A stretch of DNA of 39,284 nt, taken from NCBI GenBank assembly GCA_026417795.1, contig JAOACP010000018.1:1-39284 (forward strand), given 5' to 3'. This stretch comes from Thermanaerothrix sp. (lineage in GTDB: Bacteria > Synergistota > Synergistia > Synergistales > Synergistaceae). Below, one piece after another: positions 1 through 39,284 of this stretch (position 1 is its first letter; each line of letters starts with the position of its first letter). A program made the translations under genes and the position numbers. The notes under the pieces were generated by a model that had not been told where the DNA came from, searched no databases, and saw only the letters and a list, made by a program, of their open reading frames with translations.

Positions 1-77
1 TAGGGGATCATATTTCGTTTGGATTCTTAGGTGAGGCAACGTTCCCTTTTCGTTTAGATTTTACGTGAGGCAATTCG
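1..77 (+). repeat. 77-bp end repeat, left copy
   Basis: Bases 1-77 are identical to the reverse complement of 39208-39284. Inside are two degenerate direct copies of a 23-24 bp unit, at 16-39 and 51-73, roughly CGTTT-R-GATT followed by GTGAGGCAA, with a 35-bp period. The identity ends at 77, five bases before the -35 box of the argG leader promoter. Because the match stops exactly at the window edge, the repeat may continue outside it. A length of 77 also equals a common assembler k-mer, so the visible length may be an assembly limit and not the true size. Confidence 0.9.
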
Positions 78-82
78 GCCGC

Positions 83-110
83 TTGACTTTTATGGAGACA
101 GATGTATAAT
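83..110 (+). promoter_or_regulatory. Sigma-70-type promoter for the argG T-box leader
   Basis: A TTGACT box at 83-88 and a perfect TATAAT at 105-110 are separated by 16 bp. Transcription would start near 117 and make a leader of about 360 nt ahead of argG. The -35 box begins five bases after the end of the 77-bp repeat. The tRNA-Pro promoter at the other end of the window has the same arrangement. Confidence 0.8.
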
Positions 111-227
111 CCTCTGCAATAACTTGTTGGAAGATATCTTGGCTTGGGTGAGGAGGTGTTGTAGGTGGCGCTTAAGGTCTTTTTGCGACGACGAAGCGGA
201 TCCCTTTTCCTTCATGTGCTCCATAAG

Positions 228-476
228 GGCGATGAAGGGGGGTGGACCCGTGGCGGTCGACAGAGAGGGGGCGTCACCGGCTGAGAGCGCCCCTCGTCCT
301 GGTCAGGATTCCCTCGTGCCCCTGAGCTCCCTCCCGAAGAAAGGCGGTTGATCCGCCAAGTAGGGGGGCCCGTGAGCTAACCTCACGGGAAGAGGTGGTC
401 GCGTCAGGGGCGACAATTTGGGTGGTACCGCGGGCAAGGCAGCCCGTCCCAAGGTGGACGGGCTGCCTTATTTTTT
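228..476 (+). promoter_or_regulatory. T-box leader (tRNA-sensing riboswitch) of argG
   Basis: The signature is the T-box sequence GGGTGGTACCGCGGG at 420-434, whose TGGT bulge would pair with a tRNA ending ACCA. Upstream, 270-300 resembles the distal part of stem I (AGAGAG and GGCTGAGAG elements in a GGGGCG/CGCCCC stem). A CCCGTGAG/CTCACGGG hairpin lies at 370-390. The competing terminator follows at 438-476. A CGT triplet (Arg) at 315-317, followed by a purine, sits where a specifier codon could lie, which would suit an arginine-pathway gene. That assignment is tentative because I cannot fold the RNA. Known T-boxes bind cognate tRNA and, when it is uncharged, favour the antiterminator, so argG should rise when the amino acid is short. 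Confidence 0.88.
438..476 (+). terminator. Regulatory terminator of the argG T-box
   Basis: A 12-bp perfect stem pairs GGCAGCCCGTCC (438-449) with GGACGGGCTGCC (456-467) around a 6-nt loop and is followed by a T-rich run at 468-476. The antiterminator lies just upstream, so the two folds are likely alternatives. The terminator ends only about 36 bases before the argG start. Confidence 0.88.
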
Positions 477-512
477 AGGTTGAAGAATATTAAAACTAAG
501 GGGGATATGAAG

Positions 513-1748
513 ATGACCTATAAGGGTAAACTGGTTCTAGCTTACAGTGGCGGTCTTGATACGTCTGTAGCCATACCTTGGCTTAAGGAACAGGGCTATG
601 ATGTCATAACCTTTACCGCCGACGTGGGACAACAGATAGATCTTAAGGCAACGAAGGAAAAGGCGATAAAGTCTGGGGCTTCCAAGGCATATATCACCGA
701 TCTTAGGGAGGAATTTGTGGAGGACTACGTTTGGAAATCCCTTAAGGCCAATGCCATGTATCAAGGCACCTACCCGCTTAACTCCGCACTCTCCAGGCCT
801 TTGATTGCCAGCCATCTGGTTAAGGTGGCAAAGGAGGAGGGGGCTGTTGCTATAGCCCATGGCTGTACCGGTAAGGGGCAGGATCAGGTGAGGATAGAGG
901 TGTGCGCCAAGGCGCTTAACCCTGAGATAACGGTGGAGGCCCCCGTCAGGGACTGGCATTTTAGCAGGGATGAAGAGATCGAGTACGCGGAGAAGCATGG
1001 CATACCGGTTCCAGTTACGAAGGCTAGCCCCTACAGCATAGATGAGAACCTTTGGGGGCGGTCGATCGAATGTGGGATCTTGGAGGATCCATGGGCGGAG
1101 GCCCCAAGCGACGCTTTTACCCTTACGGTAGATCCTTGGGAGGCGGCGGATGAACCGGTGGTAATAGAGATAGGCTTTGATAAGGGGATACCTGTTTCCT
1201 TGAACGGCAAGGCCATGTCAGGGGTGGCGCTCATTGAGATGCTGAACCAAATAGCAGGCAAGGCGGGAGTTGGGAGGGTGGACATGATAGAGGATAGGTT
1301 GGTGGGCTTCAAGAGCCGGGAGGTCTACGAATGCCCTGCCGCTGTTACCCTGATAGGGGCCCATAAGGCCTTGGAGAGCATGACATTGACCAAGGAAGTC
1401 CTTAAGGCCAAGAAGGAGCTTGAGGTAAAGTATGCGGAGCTTGCCTATGAGGGGTACTGGTTCTCCCCCCTGCGGGATGCCCTGGATGCATTCATTGACA
1501 AGACCCAGGAGGTGGTGAGCGGCGTTGTAAGGGTAAGGCTTTATAAGGGGCAGGCCGTGGTGGTAGGGATGAAGTCCGACAACTCCCTCTATAGGGAGGA
1601 CTTGGCCACCTATTCTCACGGTGATAAATTCGACCACAAGGCGGCGGTCGGGTTCATAACCGTGTGGAGTCTGCCAATAAAGACCTGGAGCCAGCTGCAT
1701 GGCAAAAAGGCATGTGACGAGGTTTCAAGGGTAATAGGGATGGAATAG
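513..1748 (+). CDS. argG: Argininosuccinate synthase
   Basis: ArgG joins citrulline and aspartate with ATP to form argininosuccinate, the penultimate step of arginine synthesis in the cytoplasm. The N-terminal PP-loop ATP site AYSGGLDTS is at residues 10-18, and the conserved HGCTGKGQDQVR segment is at about 116-127. The 411-residue length fits the family (about 400). The open frame extends back to a TTG at 480 inside the leader terminator, and an ATG at 507 lies only 2 nt after the AAGGGGG ribosome site. The ATG at 513 has about 8 nt spacing and begins at the usual family N-terminus, so I chose it. The gene stands alone under the T-box leader. No argH follows; it must lie elsewhere if present. 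The downstream gene converges on it. Confidence 0.97.
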   Translation: MTYKGKLVLAYSGGLDTSVAIPWLKEQGYDVITFTADVGQQIDLKATKEKAIKSGASKAYITDLREEFVEDYVWKSLKANAMYQGTYPLNSALSRPLIASHLVKVAKEEGAVAIAHGCTGKGQDQVRIEVCAKALNPEITVEAPVRDWHFSRDEEIEYAEKHGIPVPVTKASPYSIDENLWGRSIECGILEDPWAEAPSDAFTLTVDPWEAADEPVVIEIGFDKGIPVSLNGKAMSGVALIEMLNQIAGKAGVGRVDMIEDRLVGFKSREVYECPAAVTLIGAHKALESMTLTKEVLKAKKELEVKYAELAYEGYWFSPLRDALDAFIDKTQEVVSGVVRVRLYKGQAVVVGMKSDNSLYREDLATYSHGDKFDHKAAVGFITVWSLPIKTWSQLHGKKACDEVSRVIGME

Positions 1749-39084: not shown

Positions 39085-39162
39085 TGGTCGGGATGAGAGG
39101 ATTCGAACCTCCGACCACCTGCACCCCATGCAGGTGCGCTAGCCAGGCTGCGCTACATCCCG
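39085..39162 (-). tRNA. tRNA-Pro (GGG anticodon)
   Basis: The minus strand gives a 78-nt cloverleaf: acceptor CGGGATG/CATCCCG, GCGC D-stem, anticodon stem CCTGC/GCAGG with loop ATGGGGT (anticodon GGG), TTCGAAT in the T-arm, discriminator A and encoded CCA. It reads CCC and CCT codons. It has its own promoter and terminator. Confidence 0.95.
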
Positions 39163-39173
39163 AAAGCAAGGGT

Positions 39174-39202
39174 ATTCTATTACCTTTTCCCGATTTGGTC
39201 AA
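39174..39202 (-). promoter_or_regulatory. Promoter of tRNA-Pro
   Basis: On the minus strand TTGACC (39202-39197) and TAGAAT (39179-39174) are separated by 17 bp, putting the start a few bases before the tRNA. The -35 box begins five bases after the 77-bp repeat, as at the argG leader promoter. Confidence 0.82.
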
Positions 39203-39207
39203 GGGCT

Positions 39208-39284
39208 CGAATTGCCTCACGTAAAATCTAAACGAAAAGGGAACGTTGCCTCACCTAAGAATCCAAACGAAATATGATCCCCTA
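39208..39284 (-). repeat. 77-bp end repeat, right copy (inverted)
   Basis: This copy is the exact reverse complement of bases 1-77. Read on the minus strand it contains the same two GTGAGGCAA-ending direct repeats and runs toward the tRNA-Pro promoter. Similarity drops after this point apart from the shared CTTGAC of the two -35 regions. Confidence 0.9.

Follow-up and report, generated by a model that had tools for sequence, protein, structure and literature searches.

The stretch of DNA that we analyzed (39,284 bp; hereafter the window), which is the complete contig C18 of a Thermanaerothrix sp. draft genome of 139 contigs, breaks off at either end within copies of a single insertion sequence (IS) of ~1.4 kb, and the 77-bp repeat at its ends is the promoter-proximal end of that IS, which carries a single gene, encoding an rve-type DDE transposase. 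Our data make it very likely that the IS inserts directly upstream of the -35 box of pre-existing sigma70-type promoters, with a 5-bp duplication and always with the end nearest the 5' end of the transposase gene towards the promoter, and suggest that the promoter as a whole guides its transposome. The IS ends, the target duplications, the empty sites, the fixed spacing and orientation, and the like placement of relatives in many phyla can all be read directly from the sequences compared below.

Sequence comparison confirmed that the 77 bases at the two ends of the window (1-77 on the plus strand and 39284-39208 on the minus strand) form an exact inverted repeat, as an initial annotation of the window had claimed, with divergence starting at base 78. 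Since the window is a whole contig, the length of the repeat is set by the assembly break: its inner limit is the contig cut, and two copies on other contigs run further inward. The initial annotation had also placed a -35 box five bases beyond each copy, with the promoter reading away from the repeat, and we found the same at both window ends (GCCGC and AGCCC; Table 1). The five bases had been described there as non-identical; they do differ between the two ends, and they are the target duplication of the IS. The T-box leader of argG reaches 57.8 bits against an Rfam gathering score of 93, and a default scan therefore misses it.

Table 1. Features at the two ends of the window
Feature	Position	Strand	Remarks
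Promoter-proximal IS end (end A, transposase-5' side)	1..77	+	Terminus is base 77; cut by contig end; 12 genome copies aligned, intact copy in G002
Inner copy of the doubled ~25-bp end motif, probable transposase site (putative binding)	15..39	+	Motif pair shared by end B and relatives
Outer copy of the same end motif, at a pitch of 35 bp	50..73	+	
Target duplication GCCGC	78..82	+	Other IS end, on contig C1, has GCCCC; G002 empty site has GCCGC
-35 box TTGACT, argG leader promoter	83..88	+	Same promoter without IS in G002
-10 box TATAAT, spacing 16, argG leader promoter	105..110	+	
argG T-box leader, following the targeted promoter	223..454	+	Rfam RF00230, E 5.4e-12, below gathering score
argG, argininosuccinate synthase	507..1748	+	NCBIfam E 2.3e-179; start codon assigned by eye
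End A of a second IS copy, cut by contig end	39208..39284	-	Terminus is base 39208
Target duplication AGCCC	39203..39207	-	Other IS end (contig C19) has these 5 bp too; G002 empty site has them once
-35 box TTGACC, tRNA-Pro promoter	39197..39202	-	
-10 box TAGAAT, spacing 17, tRNA-Pro promoter	39174..39179	-	
tRNA-Pro (GGG), served by the targeted promoter; rsmA/ksgA downstream	39085..39162	-	

The 77-mer (end A) occurs 12 times in the source genome, at or no more than 80 bp from contig ends. Contig ends also hold 12 copies of another sequence, end B, in which the motif pair of end A recurs. Read outwards from the IS interior, each contains a ~25-bp motif (TCGTTTRGATTYT...GAGGCAA) twice, with a pitch of 35 bp, and because they share this doubled motif, ends A and B are the inverted ends of one element. 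One end A, on contig C34 (20531-20634), is a length variant with an extra partial repeat unit of ~27 bp. The interior of the IS was not found in the source draft assembly. A full copy of about 1.4 kb is present once in G002, a single-contig genome of the same genus, in the order end B, a gene for a 410-aa transposase, end A, with the gene starting near end A and reading away from it. The G002 transposase has an rve core (E 7e-12) with invariant residues D186, D247, and E283, and a Pfam rve match, with no other Pfam match, was obtained in 29/29 members tested. A structural model of the transposase (pLDDT 83.5, compared with 65.5 for an earlier model built from a shallow alignment) retrieved retroviral integrases and the IS21 transposase IstA in a fold search; this identifies the rve fold and leaves the family unplaced by fold. 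A DDE core, inverted ends, and a target duplication together define the element as an rve/DDE-type IS. Counting from contig ends, we infer about 13 copies in the source genome, corresponding to 12 A ends and 12 B ends, with one of each apparently unassembled.

Contig ends hold nearly all copies, and on its inner side the 77-bp repeat stops at a contig cut; both features would also be expected if the terminal repeat were an assembly artefact. The single-contig genome G002, however, contains a full copy with the same ends, and the duplications match empty sites. An artefact therefore accounts only for the inner length of the repeat and, given the G002 copy, is refuted for the repeat itself; we assign this explanation practically no probability.

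At all 12 A ends, the terminus is followed after 4-5 bp (4 bp in two cases) by a -35 box (TTGAC, TTGAA, or TTGCA), and at 11 of these targets TANNNT lies behind the -35 at a spacing of 16-18, whereas of the 193 TTGAC/TTGAA/TTGCA words that the window contains, only 4.7% are followed by a -10 so placed (p = 2.6e-14). The genome-wide search with the 77-mer thus upholds the initial annotation's view that the spacing is hard to reconcile with a random repeat. A promoter at the mirrored position was found in 0/12 B flanks. Uninterrupted orthologous promoters are present in G002 at 12/12 loci, and several were seen also in the genome G001, indicating that the promoters pre-date the IS. Examples of empty sites are TTCCCATC followed directly by TTGACG and AACAAGCCC followed directly by TTGACC; the corresponding filled sites have CCATC and AGCCC, respectively, on both sides of the IS. 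Since filled sites double bases that are single in empty sites, the five bases are a target duplication. Synteny with G002 joined eight A/B pairs, in which the duplication is perfect in four, has one mismatch in three, and extends over 4 bp (GATG) in one.

Of the 12 targeted promoters, seven serve tRNA genes (Pro, SeC, a Val-Asp-Phe-Gly-Cys-Asn cluster, Val, Val, Gln, and Leu), and the remaining targets include one with a SAM riboswitch and one with a T-box leader (argG). Downstream of the targeted promoter at another locus (L008, contig C17), a short open reading frame ending in WWWRTP precedes a hairpin and resembles, by eye, a trp attenuator leader peptide. The abundance of tRNA promoters and of promoters with RNA leaders fits the first suggestion of the initial annotation, namely that the repeat is a host regulatory element (an activator or stringent-type site) upstream of strong promoters, and the IS end does now occupy the position of upstream (UP-type) sequence, where it may alter expression. 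The same promoters lack the repeat in G002 and G001, however, and the repeat, with its paired inner sites, is a transposon end: together with an inverted counterpart it bounds an element that bears a transposase gene and is flanked by target duplications. Repeat-free promoters in the sister genomes and the structure of the IS ends refute a regulatory element as the origin of the repeat, and we regard that origin as highly improbable. The other suggestion, insertion of a mobile element beside -35 boxes, agrees with the target duplications, the empty sites, the intact transposase-bearing copy, and the like-placed relatives. Nor is the repeat the flank of a larger duplicated operon: the repeated unit is the IS, and the neighbouring operons are not repeated.

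The 12 promoter copies all lie between genes or at the ends of genes and leave the core promoters intact. The exception to this pattern is one B end located inside a type I restriction methylase gene (hsdM; L024, contig C26), and the G002 copy (L054, 1094-2498) lies in the same gene, which thus holds a copy in two species. A matching duplication is absent from the G002 copy, which suggests a neighbouring deletion. Alongside this copy, hsdM and hsdR-like frames are interrupted or joined. Its A flank (CCCAC-TATACA-17-TAAGCT) has a promoter-like layout, possibly by chance.

If intergenic insertion were random and copies survived only just upstream of promoters, the location of the 12 promoter copies and the intact core promoters would be expected. 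Many distances should then be tolerable, yet the distance is 4-5 bp in 12/12 copies and peaks at 5 bp in relatives, and the orientation is fixed, with promoters on the A side only. We reject selection alone, which could not by itself produce a constant distance of 5 bp, and we consider this explanation just as improbable as a regulatory origin.

Relatives of the transposase were found in 10/188 genomes of the phylum (Synergistota) and, more broadly, at no fewer than 80 loci from many phyla. We compared 80 distinct flanks, comprising 12 from the source genome and 68 from relatives among the matches listed. IS boundaries in relatives were set by the end motif, with 13 added by hand using a fixed end sequence; background rates were taken from other offsets in the same flanks, and the p-values treat flanks as independent. 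With relatives drawn from the matches listed, TTG occurs at offset 5 in 42/80 flanks (background 1.8%, p 6e-51), and TANNNT occurs at a spacing of 16-18 in 57/80 (background 3.5%, p 3e-64). Flanks with the -35 at 5 bp have a -10 spacing of 16 in 5 cases, 17 in 22, and 18 in 7 (among the matches listed); the distance is fixed from the -35 while the spacing of the -10 varies, and the ruler therefore runs from the -35 side. Duplications of 5 bp flank 19 relatives among the matches listed, 16 of them perfectly, including a Mycobacterium plasmid copy (GGTAG). Promoter-adjacent copies occur on both sides of the transposase tree, so insertion next to promoters probably dates far back in the group. 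Several observations count against promoter-guided insertion: about a third of the relatives' flanks (among the matches listed) have no promoter recognisable by simple patterns, some relatives lie inside genes (L083 and L176), and the hsdM copy lacks a matching duplication.

Two groups of relatives have features of their own. Four loci on Rhizobiales plasmids, annotated as ISNCY (L173, L175, L177, and L178), form a separate branch with support of 100/100, and several Rhizobiales copies have a motif like TCTCAnnnTGATTGnCGC, and no promoter, just outside the IS end. This motif may reflect a different target or longer IS ends; it first suggested a changed target, but it lies outside both ends where end B was seen and so may belong to longer ends. 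In Leptolinea tardivitalis, identical IS copies (L161, L163, and L164) lie at the ends of several contigs, indicating that multi-copy members of the group break other draft assemblies too.

Alternatively, the transposase could read a DNA word such as TTGAC, with the link to promoters arising as a by-product because insertions into genes are selected out and intergenic TTGAC words mostly belong to promoters. No single feature of the source-genome targets is stronger than TTG at offset 4-5, present in 12/12, and the in-gene relatives L083 (TTGACA) and L176 (TTGTTC) have perfect duplications and no clear -10. Enrichment of such words in intergenic DNA would weaken, but hardly remove, the contrast between a -10 at promoter spacing in 11/12 targets and in 4.7% of TTGAC-like words in the window, and of the 32 relatives that lack TTG at both offset 4 and offset 5 (among the matches listed), 20 still have TANNNT in place. 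Because a -10 is present even where the -35 is poor, plain recognition of TTGAC is disfavoured, and we judge reading of a DNA word to be unlikely.

We therefore favour promoter-guided insertion, in which the transposome would be positioned by the promoter as a unit. The guide would most likely be sigma (region 4) or RNA polymerase on the promoter, reading of promoter DNA alone being less likely; bound sigma or RNA polymerase would offer an edge anchored at the -35, with strand transfer just upstream of it. Such placement would spare genes and core promoters, plausibly at low cost to the host. A further-reaching proposal, which we offer tentatively as possible and somewhat short of probable, is that an rve-type IS lineage of many phyla independently evolved the use of the transcription initiation complex (sigma region 4 or RNA polymerase at the -35) as a landing guide, together with a 5-bp ruler, making it the bacterial equivalent of Ty3, for which tRNA promoters would often serve as safe harbours. 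A comparative set for what a transposase reads at promoters is provided by more than 60 elements from many phyla (among the matches listed) whose targets are visible in sequence, and because these ISs have one gene each, it is feasible to test the transposase both alone and together with sigma or RNA polymerase.

The IS bears some likeness to the IS1202 family, in which the ISAjo2 group shows oriented insertion 5 bp from dif sites, 5-bp duplications, and a doubled end motif (PMC10132070). Members of the ISAjo2 group are 1.3-1.7 kb long with one large transposase, their left end is always 5 bp from the target, and the inner second copy of the end motif and the 5-bp duplication are both found in the present IS. 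The target of the ISAjo2 group, however, is the XerC site of dif rather than the promoters of tRNAs and operons, its outer ends are TGT..ACA rather than C..CG, and the residue at E+7 is Q (ERANRTLQ in an ISAba71-type comparator) rather than V or A (VEQKNWSVVR and VEQKNWAAAR, respectively). Transposases of the IS1202 family share 25-56% identity across the family (PMC10132070); similarity between our transposase and an ISAba71-type transposase was not detectable by BLASTP (E 0.82) or hhalign (probability 3.9). IS1202 membership, suggested by the shared geometry, was therefore rejected on transposase, outer ends, E+7 residue, and target. That this geometry is common to the dif-hunting ISAjo2 group raises the question of whether rve-type ISs commonly use DNA-bound host proteins as a guide. 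The best NCBIfam match of the transposase is to the IS481 family, which also has an rve-type DDE transposase, but the match is partial and its 43.6 bits fall below the cut-off of 224 for transpos_IS481.

Insertion at set positions upstream of genes is also known from the retrotransposons Ty1 and Ty3 of yeast and TRE5 of Dictyostelium, which land upstream of tRNA genes and thereby spare genes (e.g., PMC5911963); these elements are eukaryotic, use an RNA intermediate, and are guided by Pol III factors, and the resemblance is one of analogy only. Among bacterial elements, TnGBS/ISLre2 and some ISKra4-group elements enter sigmaA promoter regions at 15-17 bp upstream of the -35, with one prevailing orientation, and contact with the RNA polymerase initiation complex has been proposed in that case by analogy with Ty3 (PMC3942029). 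The likeness to these elements (p-MULT) is DDE transposition at a fixed distance upstream of promoters. They use Mutator-like transposases (IS256 relatives) and a distance of 15-17 bp, whereas the present IS has an rve-type transposase, a distance of 5 bp, and a 5-bp duplication, and membership was rejected because the 29/29 members tested have only rve Pfam matches. No rve-type promoter-targeting IS was found in the open-access papers searched, and members may already be named in ISfinder (relatives are annotated ISNCY). Because its transposase belongs to neither TnGBS/ISLre2/ISKra4 nor the ISAjo2 group, the IS looks like an independent promoter-hunting lineage and, as far as we have checked, a new one, with its own 5-bp ruler, a different type of transposase, and a wide host range. 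If so, DDE transposons have reached bacterial promoters more than once, with transposases of different types and with a ruler of 5 bp here and of 15-17 bp in TnGBS/ISLre2.
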